Of a stretch of DNA of 49,496 nt, positions 3,467 to 26,876 are shown piece after piece (positions within the stretch are counted from its first letter, which is position 1; each line of letters starts with the position of its first letter). The DNA is taken from NCBI GenBank assembly GCA_027062625.1, contig JAMOSZ010000015.1:1-49496 (forward strand), read 5' to 3'. Source of the DNA: Nautiliaceae bacterium. Its GTDB lineage: Bacteria; Campylobacterota; Campylobacteria; Campylobacterales; Nautiliaceae. The notes below the pieces were generated by a model. That model did no database searches and had not been told where the DNA came from. It saw nothing but the letters and a program-made list of their open reading frames with translations. Position numbers and translations under genes: made by a program.

Positions 3467-3467
3467 C

Positions 3468-4519: not shown

Positions 4520-4655
4520 AACATCTCCTTTTTTAAAAGATTTTATCAAAAAAAAGTAAAAAAATAAAATTAAAGTGATTAATTTTTAATCAATTATTCA
4601 ACTTAATTAATAAATTTTTTCAGATAAAATTTCGCATATAATTTTAAGAAGCAAA

Positions 4656-5233: not shown

Positions 5234-5244
5234 TCCTTTTTTGT

Positions 5245-5250
5245 TATAAT
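5245..5250 (+). promoter_or_regulatory. Candidate -10 element (TATAAT) upstream of the NtrC-like gene
   Basis: TATAAT 7 bp before an AAAAAGG Shine-Dalgarno-like stretch (5257-5263). Confidence 0.35.
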
Positions 5251-5321
5251 TTTGCAAAAAAGGTATAAAAATTTTTATAGCGAAATCTAAATATCTTAAA
5301 AAAATAAAAGAATTAGCAGAT

Positions 5322-7444: not shown

Positions 7445-9256
7445 ATATTTCTCCAAAACTTCAATTAATTTATCAAGCAAAATTGGCTTTAATAAATAAT
7501 CATCAAAATCATACTTTTCAATCACTTTTTTAATATCACTCTCTTTCATAGCACTAAATGCAATAATAGGTATATTTGGCAATATTTTTTTTACACTTGC
7601 GGCAAACTCTCTCCCATCAATTTGAGGCATTTCTAAATCCGAAATAATCAAATCCACATCGTGTTTTTTTAATATATCTAACCCTTCTAAACCATTTGTT
7701 GCGGTATAAACTTTTACTCCAAGTTTTTTAAGTAAAATTTCAAGAAGCTCTCTATTTAGTCTATTATCTTCAACTATCAAAACTGATTTTCCACTAAAAT
7801 CGATACTCTCTTCTAACTCTTCATAATCGTCAATTATACTCAATAAAAATCCACTTCTTGCAAGACACTCTGATACTTCATAATCATAATTTTTACTAGA
7901 AAATTTATCTTTATAAATATAAACTATTTTTTTAGCAATTCTTTTTTTATAATCCATATCAATATAAAAAGCAAAATCAAAAAGCTCACTTGGCTCTTTT
8001 TGGTAAATTTTAACATCCATAAACAAGTTTTCTAAAAACTCTTTTAAATATAATATAAATTCATCTTTTACATCTTTTGTAATAAGCGCTACTTTACATT
8101 CAGATAAAGGAAGTCTTTTTTTAACTTTTATAGGTATCCAAAATCTAAACTCACTCCCTTTACCTTTCTCAGATTCAACTTCAATATCTCCATTTAAAGC
8201 TTCAATATATCTTTTTACAATATGTAATCCAAGCCCTGTGCCTTTGTATTTTTTCTTAATCTCACTACTCTCCTGAGCAAAAGGAGCAAAAATAGTTTCA
8301 ATTTTCTCTTTTTCAATTCCAATACCAGTATCTTTTACACTCCCTACTAACTTATCATTCTCAACACTCAAAGATACCTTTACATAACCTTTTTCGGTAA
8401 ACTTAATAGCATTCATAACTAAATTTAGCAAAATTTGCTTTAACTTTAATACATCAAATTCCACTATACAATTAGTACTTACATCAAGCATCGTATAATA
8501 CTCAATTCCTTTTTTTTGAGCATTGTTACAAAATAAGAAAAATAAAGGTTCTAACTCATTTACTAAATGAACCTCTCTTAAAATAACCTCATCCCTTCCT
8601 AAATTCATAAGAAGATATGATAAATCCGATACAAGTTTAGAGCTTTGAAGTGCAAGTTCAATATATTTATTTAAAGTCCTATCTTTATTTTCAAGTTTCA
8701 AAAACGATAATACCGCAAAAACTCCATTAATTATATTTTTAATATCATGTATCATCTCTTTAAAAAACAACACTTCTTTTGCAACTATATCACCAGTCAA
8801 AACCTCAATAAAAGCGTAAAATAAATCATTCAAACTCTCCAAAAATTTTAAATCATCCTCTATAAACTGATGATAAGCTTTATCTGTAATAAACGCTTCA
8901 ATTACCCCAACAACCCTATCATCTTTTAAGATAGGAATTACCATTAAATGTTTAACATCAAAATTATAAATATTGTCAACTTTTGGATTAAATTTTGGAG
9001 TGTTTTTTGCAAAAGGGATTATTTTCCCCTTTTTAGTATTAATAACCTCTTTTAAAATAGACTCTTCCAAAGAAATTATTTCATTATCTTTAATATTTAC
9101 AATATGTCCATCTTCCACCAAAAAAAATAAAGCTTCATTTGCTGTTGTAATAATAGAGACTATCTTAACAACTTTATCTATATTTGCTTTATTGTGAAGA
9201 AGCTCAAAAGAGAGAGAGGAAATCTCTTTTAAAGCTTCTAAGAATCTTTTTTCCAT
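7430..9256 (-). CDS. GAF-domain hybrid sensor histidine kinase with C-terminal receiver domain
   Basis: 608 aa; H-box MIHDIKNIINGVF, N-box LLNLVMNAIKFTEKG, G-boxes VKDTGIGI and KGTGLGLHIVK, receiver VLIVEDNRLNRELLEILL...DLIISDLEMPQIDG...AFSAM...LLKPI. Confidence 0.92.
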   Translation of the reverse strand: MEKRFLEALKEISSLSFELLHNKANIDKVVKIVSIITTANEALFFLVEDGHIVNIKDNEIISLEESILKEVINTKKGKIIPFAKNTPKFNPKVDNIYNFDVKHLMVIPILKDDRVVGVIEAFITDKAYHQFIEDDLKFLESLNDLFYAFIEVLTGDIVAKEVLFFKEMIHDIKNIINGVFAVLSFLKLENKDRTLNKYIELALQSSKLVSDLSYLLMNLGRDEVILREVHLVNELEPLFFLFCNNAQKKGIEYYTMLDVSTNCIVEFDVLKLKQILLNLVMNAIKFTEKGYVKVSLSVENDKLVGSVKDTGIGIEKEKIETIFAPFAQESSEIKKKYKGTGLGLHIVKRYIEALNGDIEVESEKGKGSEFRFWIPIKVKKRLPLSECKVALITKDVKDEFILYLKEFLENLFMDVKIYQKEPSELFDFAFYIDMDYKKRIAKKIVYIYKDKFSSKNYDYEVSECLARSGFLLSIIDDYEELEESIDFSGKSVLIVEDNRLNRELLEILLKKLGVKVYTATNGLEGLDILKKHDVDLIISDLEMPQIDGREFAASVKKILPNIPIIAFSAMKESDIKKVIEKYDFDDYLLKPILLDKLIEVLEKYLERK

Positions 9257-9271
9257 TTTTACTTACCTACC

Positions 9272-9640
9272 TTAAATTCCTAACGATTTTATAACCTCTT
9301 GCATAACTTGATTCATAGTAAGTTTTGCAAGTCCTATATTTCCCCCTTCTTTTTCAAGTATCAATACAATATGAAGATGAACTCGTGCATCCTTTCCTGA
9401 ACATTTAATCAAAATAATAGCCTTTTCAGTCTCAATTGAAATTAAATCAGCCCCTCCAAATCCAAGGTCATCAGCAATTTCAGAAGTTTTCGTAAAAAGA
9501 CTATTAAAAGTTAACAATGCTTCATCAATATTCTTATCAGCCAAAACTCCTGCATCTTTAAAAATTACTTCACCACCTGCATCAACAATAGCCGATGCAA
9601 TATATCCTTCAAGCTTCTTAAACTTTTCTAAAAAATCCAT
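9272..9640 (-). CDS. Roadblock/LC7-like small protein
   Basis: 122 aa; KLEGYIASAIVDAGGEVIF ... EKEGGNIGLAKLTMNQVMQEV resembles the Roadblock fold NLGLxRL terminus. Confidence 0.55.
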   Translation of the reverse strand: MDFLEKFKKLEGYIASAIVDAGGEVIFKDAGVLADKNIDEALLTFNSLFTKTSEIADDLGFGGADLISIETEKAIILIKCSGKDARVHLHIVLILEKEGGNIGLAKLTMNQVMQEVIKSLGI

Positions 9641-9702
9641 TTTAACCTCCTTTTTAAAAATTATAGCATATTATATAACAAAATAAGACAAATTTAACCT
9701 TT

Positions 9703-10416
9703 TTACATTCCAAAATATTTCCTTTTCACTTCTGGATTTAATACTAAATCCTCTGGCAAACCTTCCAAAACTATTTTCCCGTGGTCTAAAATATAGATAT
9801 AATCAGCAAACCTTATTCCAATTTGAGCATTTTGCTCAATTAAAAGCATAGAAATCTGACGTCTTTCACTAATTTTTAAAAGCCCATTAAAAACTTCTAT
9901 TAAAATCTTTGGAGCAAGCCCAAGTGAGGGTTCATCCAACACCATTAAAATAGGGTCACTCATCATAGCTCTACCAATTGCAAGCATTTGCTGCTCACCA
10001 CCACTTAAATTCCCAGCATACTCATCTTTTTTTTCCTTCAATCTTGGAAAAGTATAATAAACATCCGCTAAAAGCTCTTCGTAATTTGGATCATTAAAAA
10101 ATCCCCCCATTTTCAAATTCTCTTCAACCGTTAAATTTACAAAAACTCTTCTACCTTCTGGAACAATAGAGATTCCTTTTCTTACAATCTCATAAGGAGG
10201 TAAATGAGTAATATCTTCTTCAAAAAATAAAATCTTTCCTTCTTTTTCTTCAACTAAATTAAATATAGCCTTAATAAGAGTACTTTTACCACTCCCATTT
10301 GGCCCAAGAAGAGTTACAATCTCACCTCTTCTAACCTCTAAATTAATCCCTTTTAAAACTGGAATTCCATCATACTTTACCACTAAATCCCTAACCTCAA
10401 ACATTTTTTCTCTCAC
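9703..10416 (-). CDS. livF: Branched-chain amino acid type ABC transporter ATP-binding protein LivF
   Basis: GPNGSGKST, LSGGEQQMLAIGRAMM, LMVLDEPSLGLAP; LivF-type features (MEV.dL...Y..i.vLkgI). Confidence 0.9.
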   Translation of the reverse strand: MREKMFEVRDLVVKYDGIPVLKGINLEVRRGEIVTLLGPNGSGKSTLIKAIFNLVEEKEGKILFFEEDITHLPPYEIVRKGISIVPEGRRVFVNLTVEENLKMGGFFNDPNYEELLADVYYTFPRLKEKKDEYAGNLSGGEQQMLAIGRAMMSDPILMVLDEPSLGLAPKILIEVFNGLLKISERRQISMLLIEQNAQIGIRFADYIYILDHGKIVLEGLPEDLVLNPEVKRKYFGM

Positions 10417-11200
10417 CTTTTTTAGCTTTAATCACATCCTCATCAATCTCTCCACCCAAATAAGCACTAATTACTCTCTCATCTTGAAACATATCTTGCG
10501 GTAATCCATCAAAAATAACTTTCCCATAATCAAGCACAACAACTCTATGAGCTACCAATCTTAAAAAATTCATATCGTGTTCTATAAATAAAATAGTTTT
10601 TTCAAGTTCTAAATTTATAAGCTTTATAAGCAAAGCCAACTCTTCTGTCTCAACATCTGTAAGCCCAGCTGCTGGCTCATCTAAAAGTAATAAATCTCCA
10701 TTTGTTGCAAGAGCTCTTGCAATCTCTATTTTTTTTCTAATTCCATATGGTAAATTTTTAACTTTTTTATCCAAATAATTACTAACTCCAACAAATGTTG
10801 CAATCTCTATTGCTTTTTTTCTTGCTCTATTTTCATCAATAAAATATCTTGGCAATCTTAAAAAAGCGTCTATTAAAGAGTATCTATAATTTATATGAAA
10901 ACCAACTAAAATATTTTCTAACACATTCATATTATCAAAAAGTCTAATATTTTGAAAAGTCCTACTTATCCCTCTTTTTACCCTCTCAACTGGGGATAAA
11001 TCAGTAATATCCTCATCTTTAAAGATTATCTTCCCCTCATCTGGCTTAACCGCTCCTGAGATAACATTAAATAAAGTGGTCTTCCCAGCCCCATTTGGTC
11101 CTACAAGAGCTACAACTTCTTCTGCCCTTACTTCAAATGAGACATTACTAAGCGCCCTAACTCCTCCAAAACTCTTTGTAATATTATGAACTTTTAGCAT
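10397..11200 (-). CDS. livG: Branched-chain amino acid type ABC transporter ATP-binding protein LivG
   Basis: GPNGAGKTTLFN, GISRTFQNIRLFDNMNVLENILVG, LPYGIRKKIEIARALA, LLLDEPAAGLTDVE; LivG-typical. Confidence 0.9.
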   Translation of the reverse strand: MLKVHNITKSFGGVRALSNVSFEVRAEEVVALVGPNGAGKTTLFNVISGAVKPDEGKIIFKDEDITDLSPVERVKRGISRTFQNIRLFDNMNVLENILVGFHINYRYSLIDAFLRLPRYFIDENRARKKAIEIATFVGVSNYLDKKVKNLPYGIRKKIEIARALATNGDLLLLDEPAAGLTDVETEELALLIKLINLELEKTILFIEHDMNFLRLVAHRVVVLDYGKVIFDGLPQDMFQDERVISAYLGGEIDEDVIKAKKGERKNV

Positions 11201-12281
11201 TTAAATACTCCTCTCCATCTCTCCTAGCCCATTTTATAAAAAGTCTTAGCGAATTTAAAGAGGGCTTTTTATTATACTTTATATAATCATAAAGCATTTT
11301 AGCACATACATAAGCATTTGAAAAACCTCTCCCACCCATTCCATTAATTACATATAAATTATCTTCATACTTAACACTTCTTGGCAAAGCTCCTTTTACA
11401 ATAGCTTTTGTTAAAGTTTTATCAATATTTATAACTTTATCAACAATTGGAAAATAATCCACACTCCCAGCTCTAAATCCACCTTTTATATCTTCAATCT
11501 TAAAATCATAAATATTAATAATTTCTTTTGCTTTTTTTATAAGCTCCATTGCTTCTTCTTTATTCTCCTTACATCCTAAACAATCTCTTTTGTGAGTAGC
11601 TCCAATTTTTAATCTCCCATTAACTTCCCCAACTGAACAATTTTTATGATAAAAATGCTCTATTTTATCCCACTTACCACTAATTTCTATTCTCTCCCCC
11701 CAAATAGGTCTTATTTTTAAATACTCTATATCCTCTTCATACCCTCTTGCTAAAATAAGATTTCTTGCTTTAATATCCCCTATTACAAAATAATCTCCTT
11801 CCTTCTTTATACCATCAAACTCAGCTTCTACAAAATCAACTCTTAATTTATCCTTTACATCCTCTGGATTTATAACGCTTCCTAAATCAAAAAAGAACCC
11901 ACCATCTCTTTTTTCAAAAGAAAAAGTTATAAATTTTTCATACTCTTTAAATTTTTCAATATCTTTCTTATTCCTTGGAAGTATCAAAACTCCCTTTTTA
12001 TAAACTCTAACTCCAACTTCTTCATAAAATTTAATAGACTTTACAATCGCACTATTTATAAAATCGGTATATTTACTTTTTTTGCCAACTTTTGGAAACA
12101 AAAAAGCCCCAGCCGCTCCACTTGCTCCTTTTAATAATCCTCTCTTATCAAGAATTACTACTTTATAATCTTTTTGCAAAAAATATCCACTCAAAAGTCC
12201 AGCAATTCCCCCTCCAACAATTGCAAAATCAACCAAATATCGCACTAAACGCCTCATTAAATTGTTTATCGCTAAGAGCAA
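11184..12281 (-). CDS. FAD-dependent oxidoreductase (DAO family, resembling the MnmC FAD domain)
   Basis: VDFAIVGGGIAGLLSGYFLQKDYKVVILDK (GxGxxG FAD site), GGFRAGSVDYFPIVDKV and NGMGGRGFSNA near C-terminus. True start likely internal (TTG near 12245 or ATG at 12257). Confidence 0.65.
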   Translation of the reverse strand: MLLAINNLMRRLVRYLVDFAIVGGGIAGLLSGYFLQKDYKVVILDKRGLLKGASGAAGAFLFPKVGKKSKYTDFINSAIVKSIKFYEEVGVRVYKKGVLILPRNKKDIEKFKEYEKFITFSFEKRDGGFFFDLGSVINPEDVKDKLRVDFVEAEFDGIKKEGDYFVIGDIKARNLILARGYEEDIEYLKIRPIWGERIEISGKWDKIEHFYHKNCSVGEVNGRLKIGATHKRDCLGCKENKEEAMELIKKAKEIINIYDFKIEDIKGGFRAGSVDYFPIVDKVINIDKTLTKAIVKGALPRSVKYEDNLYVINGMGGRGFSNAYVCAKMLYDYIKYNKKPSLNSLRLFIKWARRDGEEYLNAKSS

Positions 12282-12705
12282 ACATATTTTTTAATCTATT
12301 TTTGAATTTATCTTTATCAACAACAATTACAAAATATTTATGTCCTTTAAAACTACAACTCTCTTTTACTTCACTCTCAGCCAAAATAGCTGAACCTACC
12401 TCTTCTTTTATCTTTTCCCTCTTTTTATCTCCAACAATATAATTATATTTTTTTTCTATATAATTGAAAAATTTATCAAGTTTTTTTGCCATAAAACTTC
12501 TAAAATCTGTAAAAGCCTTAGCTCTTAAAATCTCTTTTGGTTCATTAGTAACTGGATAACAGAAGATAAAGTAGCGATTATTTGAAGAGCAGTGATTTTT
12601 AATAGCAATATCGCAAACTTCATTATTATTTATTTTAAAAGGTATCTTACCACTACATCCACTAAAAATAATAAACCCCACCGCCGCAATAAGAAGTTTA
12701 TTCAT
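12229..12705 (-). CDS. Putative lipoprotein of unknown function
   Basis: 158 aa; MNKLLIAAVGFIIFSGCSG signal peptide with lipobox. Confidence 0.6.
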   Translation of the reverse strand: MNKLLIAAVGFIIFSGCSGKIPFKINNNEVCDIAIKNHCSSNNRYFIFCYPVTNEPKEILRAKAFTDFRSFMAKKLDKFFNYIEKKYNYIVGDKKREKIKEEVGSAILAESEVKESCSFKGHKYFVIVVDKDKFKNRLKNMFALSDKQFNEAFSAIFG

Positions 12706-13898: not shown

Positions 13899-14732
13899 TT
13901 AAAGTTTATCTAAGATAATAAAAACTAAAAAAATAATTCCTAAAAATCCATTCAAATCAAAAAAAGCTTTTGGAATATTATCAAAACTTTTAGAGATTAA
14001 TAAATGCTCATAATACAAAATCGCTCCACTTATCAAAACTCCAATCCAAGCAAAAAATCCAAGATTAGCATAAGCAACAAACAATGCCCAAAAAATCACA
14101 GCAAAAACATGAAACATCTTTGCCATAAACAAAGCCCCTTTTTCCCCAACAATTGCGGGAATAGAAAATAGCCCCTCTTTTTTGTCAAATTCTATATCTT
14201 GCAAAGAGTACAAAATATCAAACCCAGCTACCCAAAACATCGTCCCAAAAGCTAAAAAAACCGACCAACAAGGAATACTTCCAGTTACTGCAATCGCACC
14301 AGCAATTGGAGCAAGCCCAAGAGATACTCCTAACACTAAATGAGCAAATGCACTAAATCTTTTAAAATAGCTATATCCAGCCAAAATAATCAAAATCAAA
14401 AAAGAGAGTTTGAATGCTAAATCATTAATCATATAAGCAGTTCCAATAAAAATCAAAGCATTTGCAACAATAAATAACTTTATCTCATCAACACTTATAT
14501 CTCCCCTTACAGAAATTCTATCTTTTGTGCGAGGATTTTTAGCATCAATATCCCTATCAACAAGCCTATTAAAAGCCATTGCAAAATTTCTTGCACTAAT
14601 AGCAGCTAAAAGAGCTAAAATAAAAAGTTTCCATCCAAACCATCCATTTGCCCCAACAATCATTGCAATTAAAATAAAAGGAAGACTAAAAATAGTATGA
14701 GAAAACTTTACAAGCTCTAAATACTTTTTCAT
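13899..14732 (-). CDS. mqnP: UbiA-family prenyltransferase (MqnP-like, menaquinone via futalosine)
   Basis: MKKYLELVKFSHTIFSLPFILIAM...NFAMAFNRLVDRDIDAKNPRTKDR (NxxxDxxxD). Start placed at the ATG at 14732. Confidence 0.8.
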   Translation of the reverse strand: MKKYLELVKFSHTIFSLPFILIAMIVGANGWFGWKLFILALLAAISARNFAMAFNRLVDRDIDAKNPRTKDRISVRGDISVDEIKLFIVANALIFIGTAYMINDLAFKLSFLILIILAGYSYFKRFSAFAHLVLGVSLGLAPIAGAIAVTGSIPCWSVFLAFGTMFWVAGFDILYSLQDIEFDKKEGLFSIPAIVGEKGALFMAKMFHVFAVIFWALFVAYANLGFFAWIGVLISGAILYYEHLLISKSFDNIPKAFFDLNGFLGIIFLVFIILDKL

Positions 14733-14779
14733 CAACTCCGCCTTTAAAAATTTGTATAATTGTAGCAAAAAGGAGTAAA

Positions 14780-15637
14780 ATGTTTGCAATTATAGGACCT
14801 ACTGCAAGTGGAAAAAGCAATTTAGCCTTAGAGCTTGCAAAAGAGTTTGGATATGAGATTTTATCACTTGATAGTTTGAGTATCTACAAAGAAATTGACA
14901 TAGCCTCAGCAAAACCTTCAAAAGAGGAGTTAAAAGAAATAAAACATTACGGAATTGATGAAATATATCCAAATGAAGAATTTAATGTAGCGAAATTTAT
15001 AGAGATTTATAAAAAAATCCCTCACGAAAAAATAATTATAGTAGGAGGAAGTAGCTTTTATTTAAAAGCTATGATTGATGGAATTTCTCAAATGCCTCCA
15101 ATTAACAAAGAGATAAAAGAAAAAGCCAAAAGATTTTCTTTTAAAGATATCCAACAAATAGACCCTCTTTATGCTAACAAAATTTCTCAAAATGACACTT
15201 ACAGAATTCAAAAAGCAGCCCAAATTTACCTTGCAACAAAACTTCCTCCTACTGAGTATTTCAAACTACATCCAAAAATCCCAATCCTACCACAAATTCC
15301 TATCTTTGAAATTGAAATTTCAAGAGATAAATTAAGAGAAAGAATTAAAAAAAGAACAAAAAAGATGTTTGAGATGGGATTAATTGATGAAGTTGCTTAT
15401 CTTGAAAAGAAGTATCGCGATAGAAGACTTCCAAGCTTAAAAGCCATTGGAGTAAAAGAAGTACTGGATTATTTTAACGGAAAGTATAATAAAGATGAGC
15501 TATTTGAAAAGATAGTTACAAACACTGCTCGTCTTGCAAAAAGACAACAAATCTTTAACAAAACTCAATTCCCTCAAAAAATATCAGCCCCTCTTGAAAA
15601 ATTAAAAGAGATTATAAAGAGAGAAAATCTCTCTTAA
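14780..15637 (+). CDS. miaA: tRNA dimethylallyltransferase
   Basis: GPTASGKSNLALELA...LSLDSLSIYKEIDIASAKPS...GGSSFYLKAMIDG. Confidence 0.95.
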   Translation: MFAIIGPTASGKSNLALELAKEFGYEILSLDSLSIYKEIDIASAKPSKEELKEIKHYGIDEIYPNEEFNVAKFIEIYKKIPHEKIIIVGGSSFYLKAMIDGISQMPPINKEIKEKAKRFSFKDIQQIDPLYANKISQNDTYRIQKAAQIYLATKLPPTEYFKLHPKIPILPQIPIFEIEISRDKLRERIKKRTKKMFEMGLIDEVAYLEKKYRDRRLPSLKAIGVKEVLDYFNGKYNKDELFEKIVTNTARLAKRQQIFNKTQFPQKISAPLEKLKEIIKRENLS

Positions 15638-16971
15638 AATTGGATAGTAGCATCAAACACATTGCTTGCTACTATTCCAAAATAGATAGTCCCAGCAAGC
15701 AAGATAAGTTGCCCTATTAAACTTCCGTTTGAAATTAAAATTACTCTCTCAACATCTTCCCTTGGCTCATCAAAGTAGATATGTTTAATAATCCACACAT
15801 AATATCCAACCGCAAGAGCTGAATTTAAAAGTGCAATCAATACAATTACCCAAAGTCCAGCATCTACTCCCGCATAAAATGCCACCGCTTTACTTAAAAA
15901 CCCTGCAAGAAGCGGAATTCCAGCAAGTGAAAAAAGTTGAACTGTAAAAAAGAGTGAATGAAGTGGTGCTTTTTTATAAAGTCCTTTAATATCATCAAGA
16001 TATTTTACTCCAAGTTCTCTTCTTAAATCATTCAAAATCAAAAATACACTAGTTTGCATAAAAATATACGCAATTGCATAATACAAAACCCCAGAATACG
16101 CATATAAACTCGCACTTGCCGCAAATGGAATTAAAGCATACCCACTATGAGCAATTGATGAATAAGCAAGAATTTTTGAAATTCTCTTTTGCCAAAGTGC
16201 CATAAAGTTTGCAAGAGTCATTGTAATAATAGCAAAGAAACTAAAAATTAAAACGCTTGCAAGAGGATATGCAATCATAAACTTATAAAACGCTTTAAAA
16301 GTAGCAACTAAAATCACACTCTTAATAACCCCGCTCAAAATTGCCGCAGCTGCGTGATTGATTTGAGAGTATGCATCAGCTGCCCATCCGTGCATTGGGA
16401 CAATTGTAAGTTTATAGAAAATCCCTGCAAGCATAATAGTTACTGCAATTAAAGTATACTTTCCTGCAACATTCATATCAACATAGTTAAATGAATCAGT
16501 ATTAAAGCTATAAAGTGCAAATCCAATCAAAATAATACCACTTGCAACAGCACCGGCAATAAATGTTTTAATAGCACCTTCTGCATTGTAATAGTTTCTA
16601 ATATTTGCAACTAAGATATAAGAGATAATCGCAATTACCTCAAACAAAACAATATACATAAAAAAGTCATTTGTTTCTAAAAGAGCAAGAGATGCACCTG
16701 CTAAAAAAAGCATTTGAGAAATTAAAGGTCTCTCAAAGCCAGTAAGAGAAAAAGTCACCGCCATTAAAGTAATAAGCAATACATACTCCATAAGTCTTGT
16801 TGCTTCATCACTCACAAAATATGGGAACAAAGCATTTAAGCTATTATGCGTATAGATAAAATACATTGCCAAAATAAAAGCAATAAAAGAGATAGTTTTT
16901 GCAATAAAAATATTGCTCCTATAAAAAATCGGTACCAAAAGTCCAGCAGCTATTAATACTATAAAACTCAT
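15634..16971 (-). CDS. nuoN: Complex I-like subunit N (antiporter-like)
   Basis: Multi-TM protein; LTIVPMHGWAADAYSQINHAAAAILSGVIKSVIL and KRISKILAYSSIAHSGY; last gene of nuo cluster. Confidence 0.93.
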   Translation of the reverse strand: MSFIVLIAAGLLVPIFYRSNIFIAKTISFIAFILAMYFIYTHNSLNALFPYFVSDEATRLMEYVLLITLMAVTFSLTGFERPLISQMLFLAGASLALLETNDFFMYIVLFEVIAIISYILVANIRNYYNAEGAIKTFIAGAVASGIILIGFALYSFNTDSFNYVDMNVAGKYTLIAVTIMLAGIFYKLTIVPMHGWAADAYSQINHAAAAILSGVIKSVILVATFKAFYKFMIAYPLASVLIFSFFAIITMTLANFMALWQKRISKILAYSSIAHSGYALIPFAASASLYAYSGVLYYAIAYIFMQTSVFLILNDLRRELGVKYLDDIKGLYKKAPLHSLFFTVQLFSLAGIPLLAGFLSKAVAFYAGVDAGLWVIVLIALLNSALAVGYYVWIIKHIYFDEPREDVERVILISNGSLIGQLILLAGTIYFGIVASNVFDATIQF

Positions 16972-18401
16972 TACATTCCTCCTAAAAAGCTAAATGCTTT
17001 ATTTGCTAAATCAAAAATTGGTTGAGGATTTATACCAAAGTAAACAATCAAAAACGCAAATACACTAAGCGCAAATTTTTCTGCAAAATGCATACTAAAA
17101 TCTGCTTTTGCTACTTTCTCACTCATTGGTCCGTGAATTACTCTTCTAATTGCCCAGATAATATACCCAGCACTAATAAGCCCTGCAATAGCAATTACAG
17201 CAATCCACCATCCATAAGCTTTAACAGCAGAAACTATAATAGTAAGTTCACCTACAAATCCCATTGTTCCTGGAAGTCCAAGTGCTGCCATACCAGCTAA
17301 AATGAAAATTGCACTAACATAAGGTGCCTTTTTCATAATTCCACCCATCTCATCCATATACCAAGTATGAGTTTTGTGATGTAGCCACCCAGCAATTAAA
17401 AATAGAGGCGAAATTACAAGTGCGTGTCCAATCATTTCATAAAGCGAAGCACTAAGCCCATCATATGTCATAGTAGAAATTGCAACTACTACAAGCCCCA
17501 TATGTGAAATTGAAGAGTATGCAACCATCTTTTTAATATGTCTTTCATAAATTGCAAGAAATCCTGCATAAAGAGTAGTAATAAGTCCAAAAATCAACAT
17601 CCATTTTGCAAACAATAAAGTACTAACTGGCATTAATTCAACCGTAAATCTAATAAGCCCATACGCTCCCATTTTAAGCAAAACCCCAGCTAAAAGCACT
17701 GAAATACTACTTGGAGCTTGAACATGCGCATCTGGTAGCCAAGTATGAAATGGAAACACTGGCAGCTTTGCCGCAAATCCCAAAAACATAAGCCACCAAA
17801 TAAGAGCTGGCGTTGCTAATAAAGCCTCTTTAATTGTAAGTAAATCCCAAACTCCCGTTTGAGCAAATAGTAAATAAAATCCAACAAACATAAACATTGC
17901 AAACACATGAGTGTAGATAAAAAACTTAATTGCTGCATAAATTCTATTCTCAGCCCCCCAAATCCCAACTAAAAATAGCATAGGCACAAGAGTTAACTCC
18001 CAAAACATAAAAAACCACAAAACATTTGTAGTCATAAATACCCCAAAAATAGGTCCACTAAAAAAGATAAGCAAACTAAAATAAGCCGCTTGTTTTTTCT
18101 CTTCCCAAGATGTAAATACCACTAAAACCAAAAGCGCAGCAGTTAACAAAAGCATAGCCACACTTAATGCGTCAATTTGCAAAGTTAAAGAAAATGCAAA
18201 TTGAGGCACTTTTAAAAATTCTCCAAGATATAAAAAGCTACCATCGCTTGGAAGATGCTTATACCAATAAAAAGAGATAAAAAATAGCACTAAAAACCAA
18301 CCAAGCGCTATATACTTAGCTATATGCTGAGCGTTTCTTGTTAAAAAGTAAACAAGAGCCGCTCCAAACATAGGTGCAAAAATTATACCTAACCCTACCA
18401 T
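16971..18401 (-). CDS. nuoM: Complex I-like subunit M (antiporter-like)
   Basis: MFWELTLVPMLFLVGIWG, KLPVFPFHTWLPDAHVQAPSSISVLLAGVLLKMGAYG, KKMVAYSSISHMG. Confidence 0.96.
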   Translation of the reverse strand: MVGLGIIFAPMFGAALVYFLTRNAQHIAKYIALGWFLVLFFISFYWYKHLPSDGSFLYLGEFLKVPQFAFSLTLQIDALSVAMLLLTAALLVLVVFTSWEEKKQAAYFSLLIFFSGPIFGVFMTTNVLWFFMFWELTLVPMLFLVGIWGAENRIYAAIKFFIYTHVFAMFMFVGFYLLFAQTGVWDLLTIKEALLATPALIWWLMFLGFAAKLPVFPFHTWLPDAHVQAPSSISVLLAGVLLKMGAYGLIRFTVELMPVSTLLFAKWMLIFGLITTLYAGFLAIYERHIKKMVAYSSISHMGLVVVAISTMTYDGLSASLYEMIGHALVISPLFLIAGWLHHKTHTWYMDEMGGIMKKAPYVSAIFILAGMAALGLPGTMGFVGELTIIVSAVKAYGWWIAVIAIAGLISAGYIIWAIRRVIHGPMSEKVAKADFSMHFAEKFALSVFAFLIVYFGINPQPIFDLANKAFSFLGGM

Positions 18402-18402
18402 T

Positions 18403-20253
18403 TTATAGCCCCTTTACAATAATTAAAATCGCAATAACGATAATTGCAACGCCAAGAACAAATTGCCCCATATAAGTTCCAATTTTACCGCTATGACCTG
18501 CTCTAAATATTTTATAAACTGCATAAGTAAAGTCAACCGTTTTATTTACGATGTAATCTACTACATAAGTATCAAACCATCTTGCTGATTTTGCAATAGC
18601 ACCAACGATAATATTTTTTGATACCCAAGTAATCATAGCCTCAACATAGTATCCATTAAACAATACTTGGTGAATTGTTTGCACAAAATGATGAGATGAA
18701 ATTTTGTATAACAGATTAAGTCCTTTAACATAAAGTCCAACTACAATTAAGAATAAAATAAGCATTCCAGTCAACATAAACGCAGTAAGTCCTGCTACAT
18801 GAGGCTCAACTACTTCTCCACCTGTAATATAGCGGATAATATCGCTTTGCCAAATTGAGATAAATAGAGTTAAAAACGCCAAAATTCCAAGTGGAAGTCT
18901 CATCCAAAGGTTACTTGGTTTGTGCACGCTTCCACCAATTGATTCATGTCTTGGCTCACCAAGGAAGATTAAAATCCAAAGTCTTGTAATATATGCAATT
19001 GAGAGAAGTGCGGCAATTGTAACAAATGTTTTTGTAAATCCATTACCCCACTCCCAAGCAGCGGCTACTACCATTTCCTTAGAGAAAAATCCACTAAATG
19101 GAGGAACACCTGCTAAACTAAGTGAACCCATTGCCATAAATAGTGCAACAAATGGAGCTGTTTTAATAAGTCCTCCTAGTTTCCAAGCATCTTTTTGATG
19201 ATGCGCAATATAAATTACAGCACCCGCACTTAAAAACAATAACGCTTTAAAGATTGCGTGATTTACAAGATGAAGCATACCAGCTGCTAAGCTTCCAACT
19301 CCAAGTCCTACAAATGCAATTGATAAATGCGACATAGTTGAATATGCAAGAATTTTTTTAATCTCTTTTTGCACAAGAGCTGATGTTGACCCAATAAATG
19401 CACTAAGTGCTGCAACATTTGCAACAACGAATAAAGCATCCGTATAACTAAAAAAGTCAAAAAGTCTTGCAACAATATAAATACCACTATTAACCATTGT
19501 AGCCCCATGGATAAGAGCCGAAACGGTTGTTGGACCTTCCATTGCATTCATAAGCCAAGGATAAAGCGGAAATTGACCTGATTTACCAATAGCTCCCATA
19601 AAGATAAACAAAGCCACAACTAATGCAATAGTTTTATCAATCTGTCCAGCATCTGCAAGTTTATTAAGCTCTACTAAATTTACAGTCCCAACATAATACA
19701 TCAAAAGCGCAATTGCCGCTAAAATAAAAATATCCCCAAATCTTGTATAAAGAAACGCTTGCATACCAGCATTTGCCGCTGAATGTTTATAATACCAAAA
19801 ACTAATTAATAGATAACTCGCAAGCCCCATAAACTCCCAACCAACAAAAGCTCCAATTAAATCTTTTGTAATAACAAGTAAAATCATACCCCCAATAAAA
19901 AATAGAACCTTTGCATAATATCTTGGCTGGTCTGGGTCCTCACCCATATAATCGTGAGCAAAGTGAATATCTAAAAATCCAAGTCCCGTTGCTACTAAAA
20001 GCATTACAATTGAGAGATGGTCGATATAAATTCCAAAAGGTAATTGCAAATTACCATAAGCAATCCAAGTATAATCAATATCAATCACGGTATCTGAATA
20101 TTTCAAAAATAAAACTACACTTGCTAAAAACAACACAAACCCTACAACCTCTGCTACCCAAAATGCAAGTTCTCTTTTTACCTTTCCTAATACATACGCT
20201 AATACAGCACCAACAAAAGGAGCCGTTAGTAATATAAATACTGCATTATTCAT
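18403..20253 (-). CDS. nuoL: Complex I-like subunit L (antiporter-like)
   Basis: GWEFMGLASYLLISFWY, GKSGQFPLYPWLMNAMEGPTTVSALIHGATMVNSGIY, KKILAYSTMSHL. Confidence 0.96.
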   Translation of the reverse strand: MNNAVFILLTAPFVGAVLAYVLGKVKRELAFWVAEVVGFVLFLASVVLFLKYSDTVIDIDYTWIAYGNLQLPFGIYIDHLSIVMLLVATGLGFLDIHFAHDYMGEDPDQPRYYAKVLFFIGGMILLVITKDLIGAFVGWEFMGLASYLLISFWYYKHSAANAGMQAFLYTRFGDIFILAAIALLMYYVGTVNLVELNKLADAGQIDKTIALVVALFIFMGAIGKSGQFPLYPWLMNAMEGPTTVSALIHGATMVNSGIYIVARLFDFFSYTDALFVVANVAALSAFIGSTSALVQKEIKKILAYSTMSHLSIAFVGLGVGSLAAGMLHLVNHAIFKALLFLSAGAVIYIAHHQKDAWKLGGLIKTAPFVALFMAMGSLSLAGVPPFSGFFSKEMVVAAAWEWGNGFTKTFVTIAALLSIAYITRLWILIFLGEPRHESIGGSVHKPSNLWMRLPLGILAFLTLFISIWQSDIIRYITGGEVVEPHVAGLTAFMLTGMLILFLIVVGLYVKGLNLLYKISSHHFVQTIHQVLFNGYYVEAMITWVSKNIIVGAIAKSARWFDTYVVDYIVNKTVDFTYAVYKIFRAGHSGKIGTYMGQFVLGVAIIVIAILIIVKGL

Positions 20254-20554
20254 CGTTCACCGCCTTATCTAAGTGGTCTGGGATTACTTCTCCTGTCATT
20301 CGGTTTGCAAGGATAAAGATTAAAACTCCCGCTGCCGCTTCAAGAGTTGCAATTACAATTACAACATAAGCAATTGCAAGCCCTCTTGTAAGCCCAAAGT
20401 GATACGCCGCACTCGCTAATAACAAAATTACGGCATTTAAAAGCATTTCAAGTGAGAAGAAAATTTTTAAAAAATCACTTTTACTCGTTACCCCATAAAG
20501 CCCTACCCCAAAAAGGATAATTGCCGCTATTGCATCAATATAAAATCCAACCAT
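20246..20554 (-). CDS. nuoK: Complex I-like subunit K
   Basis: FFSLEMLLNAVILLL...VIVIATLEAAAGVLIF. Confidence 0.93.
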   Translation of the reverse strand: MVGFYIDAIAAIILFGVGLYGVTSKSDFLKIFFSLEMLLNAVILLLASAAYHFGLTRGLAIAYVVIVIATLEAAAGVLIFILANRMTGEVIPDHLDKAVNDE

Positions 20555-20557
20555 CTT

Positions 20558-21025
20558 TTATTCCTTTCCATACTTTAAAGTATGAAGCATTCTAATACTT
20601 CCATATAATACACTTGCCGCTACAACTCCCATAAATACCGCAATTTCAGCATAAAAATCTGTAAAGATTTTTACTTGGTCTTTTAGAGGAATTGGCTTTC
20701 CGCCAAGTGGCATACTTGGAAGCAAAAATGGCACAATCAAAAACCCAATAATTACAATAGTCACAATACTCACAGCCCAAGGTCTAATTTCAAATTTAGG
20801 AAATTTTGCACCAATAATTGTAACCCCAAATAGAGTTAAGACTACAATTCCTCCGGTATAAACAAAAATTTGGAAAAGTCCAAGCAATTTCTCATCCATA
20901 AGAATGTAATAAATTCCAAGTAAAAACATCATCAAAACAAACGACAATACCGCTGGGACGGTATTTTTTTGAGCTAAACTCATAATTGCAAGGATAATAA
21001 CGATTGCTAAAATCAATACACTCAT
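20558..21025 (-). CDS. nuoJ: Complex I-like subunit J
   Basis: LGLFQIFVYTGGIVVLTLFGVTII typical NuoJ segment; position between nuoK and nuoI. Confidence 0.9.
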   Translation of the reverse strand: MSVLILAIVIILAIMSLAQKNTVPAVLSFVLMMFLLGIYYILMDEKLLGLFQIFVYTGGIVVLTLFGVTIIGAKFPKFEIRPWAVSIVTIVIIGFLIVPFLLPSMPLGGKPIPLKDQVKIFTDFYAEIAVFMGVVAASVLYGSIRMLHTLKYGKE

Positions 21026-21648
21026 TTTGATTCCTCCTCTTTTTGTACCTTAGCCACTTCTTTACTACTCTCTTCACTCTTAACATCTGTTTTTGGCTTA
21101 ACTTCCGCATTTTTAGATTCATCTGTCTTTGGCTGAGTTTCCTTAGCTTTTTTCGCTTCTGCCGCTTTTTTTGCCGCTTCTGCTTTTTTCTTAGCCATAG
21201 CCTCTTTTTTCTTTCTTGCTTTTTCTTCTTCTTCTTTTTTCTTAGCCTCTATCCACTCCTGAGGAATATCAACTCTAACCCAAAAGTTATCAAGAGCTTC
21301 TGGCGTTCCATCTGTAATCATCTCAATATCACCACCACTTAACTTAATCGCCTTTGGCTTAGTAGGACAAACATCCTCACAAAGCCCACAGAAAATACAA
21401 ATAGCCAAGTTTACTTCTGGCACAATCCTTGGCTTTTTAAGAGGAAGTGGTTTCATTTTAATAGCATCAACTGGGCAAATTTTATTACAAGCATCACATC
21501 CAATGCATAGCTCATATTTAATTTCGTGTCTTCCCCTAAAAATAGGTGATTTGTGAGCTGGTTCTTTTACTACATCTTTTATTGCAATTCTTGGCTCGGT
21601 TATAGCTTTTAATACCCTTATTACCTTTTCACTAATTTCAAAAATCAT
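21022..21648 (-). CDS. nuoI: Complex I-like subunit I (2x[4Fe-4S]) with long Lys/Ala/Glu-rich C-terminal extension
   Basis: CIGCDACNKICPVDAIK and CIFCGLCEDVCPTKP; then EEEEKARKKKEAMAKKKAEAAKKAAEAKKAKE... Confidence 0.94.
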   Translation of the reverse strand: MIFEISEKVIRVLKAITEPRIAIKDVVKEPAHKSPIFRGRHEIKYELCIGCDACNKICPVDAIKMKPLPLKKPRIVPEVNLAICIFCGLCEDVCPTKPKAIKLSGGDIEMITDGTPEALDNFWVRVDIPQEWIEAKKKEEEEKARKKKEAMAKKKAEAAKKAAEAKKAKETQPKTDESKNAEVKPKTDVKSEESSKEVAKVQKEEESK

Positions 21649-21649: not shown

Positions 21650-22621
21650 CTAAACTCCTATAATGTATAGTTTTGCAAAAACTATCCAAACTAAATTTAA
21701 AATCGCAAGAGGAGTTAACCAGCTCCAACAAAATTTTAGCATCTGGTCAAGTCTAAGTCTTGGGTTTGATGCTCTAATTGCTACCATAATTACCGCAAGA
21801 AGCGCGATTTTTAAAAACAACCACCAAAAACTATCAAAGAAAATCCCTCTATATCCACCAAAAAACAATGTAACAGCTGCTGCACTTACTACTAAAATTT
21901 CCGTAAATTCAGCAAATTTAAGCAACACATAGTTTGTTCCTGCATACTCTGTATAAAATCCATATACAATCTCTTGCTCAGCATCTGGAATATGAAAAGG
22001 AGGTTGTTCTAAAATTCCAAGCATGGTAATAATAAAAATAATTGCACCTGGGAGTAAGATAAGGGTTGTAAGCCAATTGTTGCTATACATAATTTCATAC
22101 AAATTCATTGTCCCAAACAGAAGTGCTGGTGAGAGAGCCGCTAAGAAAAATGGTGCTTCCATTGAAATCATTTGAGCCAAAATCCTCATACCACCAAGAA
22201 ATGAATATTTATTATGACTTCCAAAACCTGTTAAAAAAAGTAAGAAAGGTTCAACTCCAATTAATACAACAAGCCCTAAAATTCCATATTCTGTATCTAA
22301 AATTCCTCTTCCATTATTAATAAGTGGCGACCATGGAATAAGAATCACTGGAAGTGCCGCCACAAGAGGAGTAATAATTGGAATGATATTAAAAAGATAC
22401 GGATCAGCACTCTTTGGAGTAATTGATTCTTTTGTTAAAAGCTTAAACACATCATAAACAGTTTGCAATGTCCCAGCCGGTCCATTATAGTGAGGTCCTA
22501 CCCTTTTATGCACATATGCTAAAACTTTTCTTGCAAAGTAAAACACAAAAAATGTCCATAAAAGCAAAAACAAAAGTCCTGGAAAAACAAAAATGTAAAA
22601 TAGCATACTTCCAATACTCAT
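21650..22621 (-). CDS. nuoH: Complex I-like subunit H
   Basis: KRVGPHYNGPAGTLQTVYDVFKLLTKE, EQPPFHIPDAEQEIVYGFYTEYAG, RLRLDQMLKFCWSWLTPLA. Confidence 0.95.
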   Translation of the reverse strand: MSIGSMLFYIFVFPGLLFLLLWTFFVFYFARKVLAYVHKRVGPHYNGPAGTLQTVYDVFKLLTKESITPKSADPYLFNIIPIITPLVAALPVILIPWSPLINNGRGILDTEYGILGLVVLIGVEPFLLFLTGFGSHNKYSFLGGMRILAQMISMEAPFFLAALSPALLFGTMNLYEIMYSNNWLTTLILLPGAIIFIITMLGILEQPPFHIPDAEQEIVYGFYTEYAGTNYVLLKFAEFTEILVVSAAAVTLFFGGYRGIFFDSFWWLFLKIALLAVIMVAIRASNPRLRLDQMLKFCWSWLTPLAILNLVWIVFAKLYIIGV

Positions 22622-22630: not shown

Positions 22631-24304
22631 TTATCTATCTAAATCACCCTGACAGATATGCATACTTCCATAAAGAAGCGGAATATCTGATAGGGTATGT
22701 CCTGGTAATAACTCTTCTAAAACTTTTGTATGATTTACACTTGGTGCTTTTAACTTTAATCTATAAGGAGTTGTCGCTTTTGGTTTTGTCACAAGATGCA
22801 TAAGCACCTCACCTCTTGCCCACTCAACTCTGGTAACTGCTTCACCTTCTGGGAGTCTTTTTGGCATTTTAACAAGATGATCTTTCTTAGGGTCCATCTC
22901 TCCTGCTTCAACTCCTTCTTCAATTTTCTTCATAGCCTGTTTAATCAAATCAATTGCTTGGTCAACCTCTTTTACAATAATATAAAGTCTATCTCTTGCA
23001 TCCCCATTTTCACAAGTTACATAATCTATTTCAAGTTCCCCATAAGCTGCATAAGGTTCATCAATTCTTACATCAATTTTTGCGCCACTTGCCCTTGCAA
23101 TTGGACCTGCAAGATAATACTTTTCAACATCTTTTAAACTAAATTTTCCAGCATCTTTTGCTCTAACGCTCATAAGAGGGTTTTTTAAGAAAATATCTTC
23201 AATATCTGGTTTTATAGTTTCCCATTTTTTAATAGCTTTATTTATTTCATCAAACCAAGCTTTATAATCATTTAAAGGATATCTAACTCCACCTGGTTCT
23301 ATGCAAGAAGTTGCAATTCTTGCACCTGAATAATCTTCAAGAACATCTAAGAAATATTCTCTTACATCAAGACACCACATCAAGAATGTTTGAAGCCCCA
23401 TTGTTCCAAAAAATCCACCCATTGAAATAAGATGAGATGCAATTCTTCCAGTCTCTCCTAAAATAACTCTCATATACTTTGCAAAAGGAGTTATCTCTTT
23501 TCCAGCAATCTCTTCAACTGCCTGAGAATAACAAATCATAGGGTTTGGGTTATCCATAAAGCAAATTCTCTCAACCGCAACAATTGCACCTATAAAATCT
23601 TTTCTCTCAGCAAGATGTTCTAACGCCCTCCAAACATAACCAATATCTGGTTCTACTTTTTCAATGTTTTCACCATTTACGAATACTTTTAATCTAATTG
23701 GACCACTTGCTGGGTGAGTTGGTCCCCAATGAAGCACTGTTCTACTTCCCTCATGCCCCATTGTTTTTTCATGCTCTTCATACTCTTTGAAAAACTCTTC
23801 TGTAATTGCATTTACATTTTCAATAAGGTTTTTTTCATGCTCTTTCCAATCAAAATCTTTTCTAAATGGATATTTTCCATAATAATCTCTACTTATTAAG
23901 AAATATCTTAAATTTGGATGACCTACAAATTTTACTCCATAAGTTGAATATGCTTCAAGCTCATGATAATCAGCACTTGGAAATTCTGGGGTAATTGAAT
24001 CAATCTCACAATTTTCTAAATTTCTTGGTAAATCTACTTTTAGCCAAACATTAACTTTTTCTTTCTCTTTACTTGAAACTGATGGATTTAAACTTTCAAG
24101 AAAATAATTTACTTCAATTCTATCTTCATCAATAAAATCTGTTGGTGAAACGGTTGAACAAGTTTTAATGCCTGCTTTTTTTAATTCTCTTACAAGAGGA
24201 AGCAAATCTTCTTTATTTTTTAATTTTGCTTTTACCCAAGATTTATAATCCTCTACATACTCTACATCAAATTTTGAAATAATATTTTTAATCTCTTCTC
24301 TCAT
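22631..24304 (-). CDS. nuoCD: Fused complex I-like NuoC-NuoD protein with atypical active-site motifs
   Basis: NuoC-like N-terminus (YHELEAYSTYGVKFVGHPNLRYFLISRDYYGKYPFRKDF) fused to NuoD/49-kDa-like domain (GPTHPASGPIRLKV...GYVWRALEHLAERKDF...RVILGETGRIASHLISMG...DLDR). Confidence 0.9.
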   Translation of the reverse strand: MREEIKNIISKFDVEYVEDYKSWVKAKLKNKEDLLPLVRELKKAGIKTCSTVSPTDFIDEDRIEVNYFLESLNPSVSSKEKEKVNVWLKVDLPRNLENCEIDSITPEFPSADYHELEAYSTYGVKFVGHPNLRYFLISRDYYGKYPFRKDFDWKEHEKNLIENVNAITEEFFKEYEEHEKTMGHEGSRTVLHWGPTHPASGPIRLKVFVNGENIEKVEPDIGYVWRALEHLAERKDFIGAIVAVERICFMDNPNPMICYSQAVEEIAGKEITPFAKYMRVILGETGRIASHLISMGGFFGTMGLQTFLMWCLDVREYFLDVLEDYSGARIATSCIEPGGVRYPLNDYKAWFDEINKAIKKWETIKPDIEDIFLKNPLMSVRAKDAGKFSLKDVEKYYLAGPIARASGAKIDVRIDEPYAAYGELEIDYVTCENGDARDRLYIIVKEVDQAIDLIKQAMKKIEEGVEAGEMDPKKDHLVKMPKRLPEGEAVTRVEWARGEVLMHLVTKPKATTPYRLKLKAPSVNHTKVLEELLPGHTLSDIPLLYGSMHICQGDLDR

Positions 24305-24313: not shown

Positions 24314-24787
24314 CTAAAATTTCATTTGTTTCCATAAGCCACCTTGACTTGAAGCTGATGGCTCACCTCTTTTAATTTTTTCTTTAAGTTCTTCAAGTCC
24401 TGCAATAATTGCCTCTGGTTTTGGAGGACATCCAGCAACAAATACATCAGCTGGCAAAATCTCTGTCATATTTTTAATAACCGATTCACTATCATTATAA
24501 GGACCTCCATCATAAGCACACGCCCCAATTGCCACAACATACCTTGGTTCTGGCATTTGCTCATAAGTCCTAAGAAGTGCTGGAAGGATTTTTTTGCTTA
24601 CAAGCCCAGTAATAAAAATAATATCAGCCTGCCTTGGAGTTGGAGTCATAATATATCCATATCTCTCCCAATCATACCTTGGTCCCATAGCCGCAAGCAT
24701 CTCCAATGAACAACACCCGCTACAAAAATGAACAATCCAAGGACTTTTGCTTCTTGCATAGTTAAAAAAATCAAGCACCTTTAACAT
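24314..24787 (-). CDS. nuoB: Complex I-like subunit B (N2 cluster)
   Basis: VHFCSGCCSLEMLAAMGPRYDWERYG, TGLVSKK, YVVAIGACAYDGGPY, FVAGCPPKPEAI. Confidence 0.95.
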   Translation of the reverse strand: MLKVLDFFNYARSKSPWIVHFCSGCCSLEMLAAMGPRYDWERYGYIMTPTPRQADIIFITGLVSKKILPALLRTYEQMPEPRYVVAIGACAYDGGPYNDSESVIKNMTEILPADVFVAGCPPKPEAIIAGLEELKEKIKRGEPSASSQGGLWKQMKF

Positions 24788-25127
24788 TTCTAAACTCCTT
24801 TGAATTTCTATACTCTTTCATACTAACTGTAATTGCCGTAAACAATAAAAATCCAAATACCATCGCCCAATGAAGAGCCTCTTTATTGTCTGCAAAAACA
24901 AATAAGCTAAAAAACAATCCAGCCATATCAAACACAATAAAAGCAATTGCAAAAATAAAATAACTAAAATTCGCTTTCATTGGCACTTCACTACTTGGAG
25001 GAAGCCCACACTCAAAATGGTCATTTTTAATCTCCCCTGGATTATAAGGAGCAACAGCAATACCCAAAAAGTAAAGAAGTAAAACACCACCTAAAATACC
25101 ACTTGCAAAAATTAAAATAGTTTCCAT
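24771..25127 (-). CDS. nuoA: Complex I-like subunit A
   Basis: HFECGLPPSSEVPMKANFSYFIFAIAFIVFDMAGLFF. Confidence 0.93.
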   Translation of the reverse strand: METILIFASGILGGVLLLYFLGIAVAPYNPGEIKNDHFECGLPPSSEVPMKANFSYFIFAIAFIVFDMAGLFFSLFVFADNKEALHWAMVFGFLLFTAITVSMKEYRNSKEFRNVKGA

Positions 25128-25244: not shown

Positions 25245-26876
25245 TTACACTGAAAACCCAACTTCTTTATACCCTCCAAAATCACTCTTTAACTCTTTTT
25301 CAATAACCTCAACAAAATCGCTAACTCTAAAAACATCATCCCCTCTCATAGCAACTTTTAAAGCCGTATTTTTAATAACTACCTCAATTTGAGCTCCCGT
25401 TAGAGGGTATTTTGCCAATTTATTTACATCAAATCCATCTTCATATTTTGCCTCTTTTGGAAGTTTTATTTTCCAAAGTTTTACTCTATCTTTAAAAGAT
25501 GGTTTTTCAAATTTAACCTTAAAATCAAACCTCCTTGAAAAAGCCTCATCAATTGTCTCTAAAAGGTTAGTAGTAGCAATTAATATCCCATCAAATCTCT
25601 CAATTTGTTCTAAAAAAATATTTTGCATTTGATTGTGCATTTTATCTGCACTACTTATTGCATGAGTGCTTCTTGAAGAGAGAAATTGATCAGCTTCATT
25701 TAAAAGCAAAACCGGAGGAGTTTTTAGCTTATCGCTAATTTCATAATACTCATCAAAAAGCCTTCTTACATTCTTTTCACTCTCTCCAACATAAGCTGAG
25801 AGTATCTTACTTGAATCAAGCGATAAAATTGGCTTATTTAAAACATTTGCAATTGCATAAGCGCTCATAGTTTTTCCAGTCCCTGCTGGACCATAAAACA
25901 AAATCTTAGCGCTCATTATATTATCTTTTATCCCCCACTTTTTCAATTTCTCCAAAACTTTCTCATCAAATTGAGATAAAAATGTATCAATACTTTTTTT
26001 AGTAGCCTCTGATAAAATCAAATCACTTAAAGTAACACTTGGTTCTAACAAATCAAACATTGTATCTTTAATTAAAATATTAATTTTATGATTTTTCCTT
26101 GAAGAGACTAAATTTTCTAAAATATTATCAGTAATATAATACCTTCTACCTCCACCAAAAAAGTCACTCTCTTCAAAATCAATAAGCCCTTCATTTACTA
26201 ACTTTGAGTCTAAATCAACCAAAGAGATATTATCAATCATCTCTTCTAAATCATCACTAACAACTCCAAGTAAAGTTTCTAACACTCTTATATCATCATT
26301 ACTTCTTAAAAACTCTTCTCTTAAAAGCAAAAAGAAAATAATTTCTTCTTTTTTACTAAGCTCTAAACTTCTTAATAAATCAACTAAAAAAATTACCTCT
26401 TTTGTAGCAGATAATCTTTTTGCAATTCTTGTCTCAATAAGTCCTATTTTCTTTTTTAGAAAAGGAATTTTTATGGAGTGTTTGTTCTTTTTTTTGTGCA
26501 AATATAATTTATAATAAAGCTCAGCCCTCTCAAACTGCTCTTTTAAAAATTGAGATTCCTTTTCATAAGGAGAATCAATAACCTCAACATCCTCTTTATA
26601 TTCTAAAATTTCAAAAAACAAAGGAGAGAGTGAAATAGACTTAAAATATAAATCAAATAAAGAATTGCTATAAAACTCAACATTTACAAGCTCTTTTTCA
26701 TACAATTTTTTAATAATTTCTAGTTCATCTTTATCAAGTTTTACCAAATTCTTTACCGATACAACACTTTTATTATCTAACTTAGCTTTAAGCAAAGCCT
26801 TTAATATATCTAACTCTTTATCTGATAAAATAGCAAAATTAGTCTCTTGTGGATTTTGTAAAAATTTATATAGCAT
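25245..26876 (-). CDS. AAA+ ATPase of unknown function
   Basis: 543 aa; GPAGTGKTMSAYAIAN (Walker A), PVLLLNEADQFLSSRS (Walker B-like with Asn), ATTNLLETIDEAFSRRFDFKVKFEKP (sensor 1/Arg finger). Confidence 0.82.
   Translation of the reverse strand: MLYKFLQNPQETNFAILSDKELDILKALLKAKLDNKSVVSVKNLVKLDKDELEIIKKLYEKELVNVEFYSNSLFDLYFKSISLSPLFFEILEYKEDVEVIDSPYEKESQFLKEQFERAELYYKLYLHKKKNKHSIKIPFLKKKIGLIETRIAKRLSATKEVIFLVDLLRSLELSKKEEIIFFLLLREEFLRSNDDIRVLETLLGVVSDDLEEMIDNISLVDLDSKLVNEGLIDFEESDFFGGGRRYYITDNILENLVSSRKNHKINILIKDTMFDLLEPSVTLSDLILSEATKKSIDTFLSQFDEKVLEKLKKWGIKDNIMSAKILFYGPAGTGKTMSAYAIANVLNKPILSLDSSKILSAYVGESEKNVRRLFDEYYEISDKLKTPPVLLLNEADQFLSSRSTHAISSADKMHNQMQNIFLEQIERFDGILIATTNLLETIDEAFSRRFDFKVKFEKPSFKDRVKLWKIKLPKEAKYEDGFDVNKLAKYPLTGAQIEVVIKNTALKVAMRGDDVFRVSDFVEVIEKELKSDFGGYKEVGFSV

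Follow-up and report, generated by a model that had tools for sequence, protein, structure and literature searches.

Operon structure and gene content

The window, by which we mean the whole 49,496-nucleotide stretch of Nautiliaceae DNA that was analysed, carries a ten-gene operon, nuoA-B-CD-H-I-J-K-L-M-N, extending from 25127 to 15634 with the gene order and membrane arm of complex I:

24771..25127, minus strand: nuoA
24314..24787, minus strand: nuoB, proximal [4Fe-4S] subunit
22631..24304, minus strand: nuoCD-like gene, 557 aa, catalytic-chamber subunit
21650..22621, minus strand: nuoH
21022..21648, minus strand: nuoI, with two [4Fe-4S] motifs and a charged C-terminal tail
20558..21025, minus strand: nuoJ
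20246..20554, minus strand: nuoK
18403..20253, minus strand: nuoL, antiporter-like pump subunit, scoring above the TIGR01974 cut-off
16971..18401, minus strand: nuoM, antiporter-like pump subunit, scoring above the TIGR01972 cut-off
15634..16971, minus strand: nuoN, antiporter-like pump subunit

The nuoCD frame, for which the first-pass annotation named no strand, is read on the minus strand (24304→22631); the plus-strand translation is riddled with stops. Its product carries WGPTHPASGPIRL, ERICFMDN (within VERICFMDNP), and SMHICQGDLDR. We refer to the lineage of the window complex as X. Across 16 further X loci the nuo order was identical in most; in the others, a contig end cut the operon, a frame was broken, a subunit had been missed, or an insertion intervened.

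Neither nuoE, nuoF, nor nuoG was found in the window operon, and in the other X loci the nuo genes are spaced too closely to accommodate them. NuoF (PF01512) was absent genome-wide in the source genome and in all seven Nautiliaceae searched; it was missing in 12 of 14 X genomes, and in the other two (G080 and G081) it adjoins another nuoCD. With no NuoF in the genome, a reading of the complex as an NADH dehydrogenase was ruled out. In its available part, the N. profundicola genome paper describes an incomplete Nuo in which E, F, and G are absent, also lists K as missing, proposes quinol-driven formation of NAD(P)H, and does not discuss the chamber site; the window, unlike that list, does have nuoK. 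The concatenated tree of a 2025 survey shows a separate clade of complex I-like sequences from Campylobacterota, which may be X. Our literature search, of partial coverage, returned no description of the X chamber.

Residues of the catalytic chamber

The D domain of NuoCD was aligned over its full length with the complex I 49 kDa subunit, MbsL, MbhL, and HycE by profile alignments against solved structures, in which the key blocks align unambiguously. The sites concerned, with the Cys motif of NuoB, are:

23690..23725, minus strand: residues 194-205, GPTHPASGPIRL, the beta1-beta2 loop without Nqo4 His38
23561..23563, minus strand: C248, first Ni-ligand position, equivalent to MbsL C85, present in 53/53 homologues
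23552..23554, minus strand: D251, second Ni-ligand position, E88 in MbsL
22652..22654, minus strand: C551, third Ni-ligand position, equivalent to MbsL C385, present in 53/53 homologues
22643..22645, minus strand: D554, fourth Ni-ligand position, D388 in MbsL and usually D or E in complex I
24710..24724, minus strand: NuoB C22-S-G-C25-C26, the tandem CC of complex I with one further Cys

The first-pass annotation, made by eye, had claimed that His38 of the complex I quinone site was absent and that Tyr87 had become Phe, and the profile alignments agree on both counts. The complex I loop HPAAHG becomes HPA-SG, with loss of Thermus His38, and residues G194-G201 were invariant in alignment A1. 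DRLDY aligns with ERICF, so that D is replaced by C, and F249, two residues ahead of D251, stands in for Tyr87, a residue kept in every complex I sequence sampled. Thermus Asp139 (bovine D160) is also lost, a change that the first-pass annotation had missed, HALDxGA being replaced by GFFGTMG, and the C-terminal xDIVxGExDR of complex I becomes HICQGDLDR. A second type of Campylobacterota NuoCD (loci L020-L034) keeps both His38 and Tyr87, with Asn replacing the Asp that precedes Tyr87 (RLNYC).

Of the four [NiFe] cysteines, two were kept (C248 and C551), with Asp at the remaining two positions. Both align with the first Cys of a hydrogenase CxxC, the reference being the intact group 4 hydrogenase of the source genome itself (RVCGLC and DPCMSC), and from established knowledge of [NiFe] sites we take these positions to be those of the terminal Ni ligands. 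The earlier reading of RICFMD and SMHICQGDLDR as motifs that each retain only the first, terminal-ligand Cys thus stands, the sequences being present as stated.

In NuoB, the adjacent pair of the CxGCC motif corresponds to Nqo6 C45/C46, and the additional Cys occupies the position of MbsJ C25. All five NuoB cysteines were invariant in 49/49 distinct NuoB proteins, and the subunit appears from its residues to have enough Cys for full ligation of the cluster. A tandem Cys pair in NuoB is typical of quinone-reactive complexes. A separate search of 200 genomes with a NuoB-motif pattern matched eight of them, all already known to carry X.

Conservation and structure model

Conservation of the two cysteines in relatives had been named in the first-pass annotation as a check on its claims. 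C248 and C551 were found in 53/53 distinct NuoCD homologues, some from loci selected with the pattern VER[IL]CFMD, which includes C248, while all other Cys columns varied (next best, 51/53); their retention is therefore not due to chance. The homologues recovered solely from similarity over the whole protein all have both as well (14/14), and no locus search pattern included C551 or the NuoB motif. Together with D251 and D554 they were invariant in alignment A1. Decay to a pseudogene was ruled out, since homologues as distant as about 55% identity still share the site unchanged.

AlphaFold, given 70 sequences, produced a confident model (pLDDT 91, pTM 0.92; an earlier model was poor, with pLDDT 67). 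The closest solved folds were HycE, the top Foldseek match, and NuoCD of Aquifex and E. coli. The sole segment of the model below 50 was 197-200, within the loop that lost His38.

Phylogenetic position

Trees were built from NuoD (51 rows and 62 rows) and from concatenated NuoB+NuoD+NuoH (38 rows). X formed a single clade in all three, with support of 100/100. Complex I without X was recovered at 100/97 (51 rows), 99/93 (62 rows), and 100/100 (concatenated), so that X is not nested in ordinary complex I. With 51 rows and in the concatenated tree, the hydrogenases grouped together (100/99 each); with 62 rows, Ehr-like sequences fell among them, and they stayed outside X+MBS+complex I (100/100). 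Within a limited sampling that omits Fpo, NdhH, and most archaeal Mbx and that includes long branches, a position of X outside complex I, group 4 hydrogenases, and Ehr-like proteins is supported.

The order among X, MBS, and complex I is a trichotomy. The 51-row tree favoured MBS+complex I (97/88) and the 62-row tree favoured X+MBS (77/32). In AU tests on the 51-row tree, neither X+MBS (p 0.08) nor X+complex I (p 0.08) was rejected; on the 62-row tree X+complex I was not rejected (p 0.4), and X+MBS is already in the best tree, weakly supported. A grouping of X with MBS is thus neither shown nor rejected. The first-pass annotation had suggested a branch between complex I and the hydrogenase-related complexes: the placement outside both holds, but a literal intermediate position is not established, as the AU tests reject none of the alternatives compared.

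NCBIfam scores also indicate that the window protein is not an ordinary NuoD: it fell below the cut-offs of NF004739 (305.6 vs 360) and TIGR01962 (236.1 vs 459.35); NuoB, NuoL, and NuoM passed their subfamily cut-offs.

Comparison with known complexes

Judged by its residues, the closest parallel of X is MBS, the membrane-bound sulfane sulfur reductase characterised from Thermococcales, which the first-pass annotation did not name. In MBS, H38 and Y87 are absent, whereas C85 and C385 are kept next to the proximal cluster (PMC7684303). A C85A/C385A mutant is still active, since catalysis takes place at the three-Cys proximal cluster, where it requires an iron without a Cys ligand, and MBS has been presented as a step from hydrogenase to complex I in which half of the NiFe cysteines were lost (PMC7684303). 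The full MbsL alignment, obtained from a PDB search with a chimera query (the window protein plus MbsL letters), gives C85-V-P-E and C385-P-P-D at the Ni-ligand places. The pattern of two cysteines and no quinone residues in X thus matches one already characterised in MBS.

Like X, MBS/Mbx of Pyrococcus furiosus (PDB 6U8Y) has the same two cysteines with neighbouring acids, lacks H38 and Y87, and has no NADH module, and its MbsJ is the best PDB match to X NuoB. It differs in having a Mrp-type arm and separate C and L subunits, where X has a complex I arm and a fused NuoCD; in its single Cys (C-G) and three-Cys proximal cluster, where X has a tandem CC (CxGCC); and in reading RICVPEP, where X reads RICFMD. 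A genuine MBS/Mbx-type operon was seen in a Campylobacterota genome (G037, locus L106, about 3336-12567); with its Mrp subunits, RICVPEP, and SLGICPPEIER, it is easily told from X.

Complex I, including the 11-subunit forms without an NADH module, shares with X the gene order, arm, tandem NuoB CC, and fold. In X, however, His38, Tyr87, and Asp139 are missing and C248 and C551 are present; its protein falls short of the curated NuoD cut-offs, and it branches outside complex I. Group 4 [NiFe] hydrogenases (MbhL, HycE, Ech/Coo) share the superfamily, the fold, and the first Cys of each CxxC, but X is without the two bridging Cys and without the hydrogenase NuoB-type motif SCNGCD. Ehr-like complexes, which we presume to be recognisable by RxSGD, are likewise hydrogenase relatives without a NiFe site, although their Cys set was lost differently. 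Membership of X among them was rejected: the four sampled Ehr-like rows group with HycE/MbhL, and the residues differ.

Distribution and horizontal transfer

When 84,980 species genomes were scanned for two peptides specific to X, a search that relatives lacking both would escape, 50 X loci were found, 48 in Campylobacterota and two in gammaproteobacterial metagenome-assembled genomes. The Campylobacterota hosts include Nautiliaceae, Sulfurimonas, Sulfurovum, Sulfuricurvum, Nitratifractor, Thiovulum, and others. Most of the named hosts belong to groups that metabolise sulfur; any link between X and sulfur metabolism would be drawn from these host groups, whose relatives without X are often sulfur users too. 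No sulfur gene linked to the operon was found among the flanking genes scanned. Several X genomes also hold a canonical complex, and X is therefore probably not redundant; Nautiliaceae have no complex I-like enzyme other than X and the hydrogenases.

The two gammaproteobacterial copies, L050 and L067, were sisters inside X (100/100), and each genome also holds an ordinary NuoD. On the L050 contig, the flanking thyA is 87-88% identical in related genomes; mis-binning was therefore rejected, the contig being native to its host, and the copy is most simply explained by a real horizontal transfer of the X operon into a Thiomicrospira-type genome. Beside L067, an adenylosuccinate lyase shares no more than 31% identity with Campylobacterota proteins; this makes mis-binning unlikely and fits an apparent transfer of the whole operon here as well.

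All 14 Campylobacterota X genomes carry futalosine-menaquinone genes. ATP-citrate lyase was found in 14/14 X genomes and in 51/86 others (Fisher p 0.0018, with kinship ignored). Searches of both gammaproteobacterial carriers with PF16114 and PF02621 found no ATP-citrate lyase and no futalosine-menaquinone gene, the ATP-citrate lyase model being one that matches Campylobacterota but that matched no control genome in this search. A simple role linked to the rTCA cycle was rejected on the ATP-citrate lyase result. Since neither gene was detected in the Thiomicrospira-type carrier, use of X seems to be tied neither to ATP-citrate lyase nor to menaquinone.

Proposed function

The invariant loss of the quinone-head residues makes altered chemistry at the acceptor site a fair inference. 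The account we prefer, tentatively and without calling it probable, is that X, related to complex I but forming a third lineage next to it and MBS, couples ferredoxin or flavodoxin to the pumping of ions and would perform an MBS-like function on a complex I chassis. Electrons would presumably enter from ferredoxin or flavodoxin, the likely donors, at NuoI and pass through the proximal cluster to a substrate in the chamber, rather than to quinone in the canonical way. That substrate may be sulfane sulfur or polysulfide, as in MBS, or sulfide in the reverse direction, and the free energy would drive, or be driven by, ion pumping via NuoL/M/N. By textbook potentials, sulfide (about -270 mV) would feed reverse flow to ferredoxin more easily than menaquinol (about -70 mV).

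Sulfane sulfur or sulfide as the acceptor is our leading guess, if a rather uncertain one. It is favoured because MBS is, to our knowledge, the only characterised enzyme with this chamber pattern, because several genomes hold X alongside a normal complex I, and because most hosts come from sulfur groups, whereas searches for rTCA and menaquinone genes did not succeed in every host. Against it count the tandem NuoB Cys, with X apparently having full Cys ligation, unlike the open iron of MBS; the activity of MBS C85A/C385A, by which the retained cysteines need not be catalytic; the menaquinone genes of all 14 Campylobacterota X genomes and the lack of a sulfur gene among the flanking genes scanned; and the PsrABC, Sud, and NAD(P)H polysulfide reductase that N. 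profundicola already has, according to the available part of its genome paper.

The main rival, to which we give nearly equal weight and which is a serious if unproven contender, is that X still reacts with menaquinone as a ferredoxin-linked complex I, probably reversed for CO2 fixation, other residues having taken over the binding and protonation of quinone. The complete gene order and arm of complex I speak for it, as do the tandem NuoB Cys, the presence of menaquinone genes and of ATP-citrate lyase throughout the 14 genomes, the position of X as the sole complex I-like enzyme of Nautiliaceae besides hydrogenases, and the quinol-driven reverse transport assumed in the available part of the N. 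profundicola paper. It must account, however, for the invariant loss of all three known head-group residues, including a tyrosine found in every sampled complex I, for the occurrence of X alongside canonical complexes, and for two gammaproteobacterial hosts in which searches detected neither futalosine-menaquinone nor ATP-citrate lyase genes, although ubiquinone could take the place of menaquinone in these.

It is improbable that C248, D251, C551, and D554 form a putative new catalytic site, whether a mononuclear metal centre or a redox-active dithiol. The four residues are invariant in alignment A1, and MbsL has C85/E88 and C385/D388 at equivalent places, but MBS loses no activity on replacement of both cysteines, and the position of D554 is D or E in most complex I too. 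A functional or degraded [NiFe] hydrogenase, to which the protein family and the two remaining cysteines among four ligand positions might point, is largely refuted by sequence and can hardly be entertained, given the loss of both bridging Cys in all homologues, an intact group 4 hydrogenase in the same genome, and conservation too strong for decay.

Returning to the sulfane reading, a more specific version is possible though doubtful: that X is a third energy-converting class, a sulfide/polysulfide oxidoreductase of sulfur bacteria that is built on complex I and linked to ferredoxin. Its half-dismantled [NiFe] site (C2D2) and complex I-type cluster ligation would then mark an intermediate on the way from hydrogenase to complex I, other than the one seen in MBS. 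X combines a half-lost NiFe site with the arm and the cluster ligands of complex I, which implies that these traits do not change together and makes the order of steps in complex I evolution testable. In Nautiliales and in many Campylobacterota of vents, the enzyme annotated as complex I may not work on quinone in the normal way; if so, metabolic models of these autotrophs would be affected.

Variation around the operon

Several minor features of the loci were observed. At L066 (13610-19431), three genes lie between nuoJ and nuoK, encoding a DUF4010/MgtC protein, a protein of 1188 aa, and one of 341 aa. The C-terminal tail of the window NuoI (21022-21300, minus strand) is long and rich in Lys, Glu, and Ala. 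A gene for a UbiA-like prenyltransferase, possibly acting in a menaquinone step, lies two genes downstream of nuoN (13899-14789, minus strand). Directly upstream of nuoA, an AAA-type ATPase gene was found in the window (25245-26876, minus strand) and at L037; it is absent from that place in the other X loci listed.
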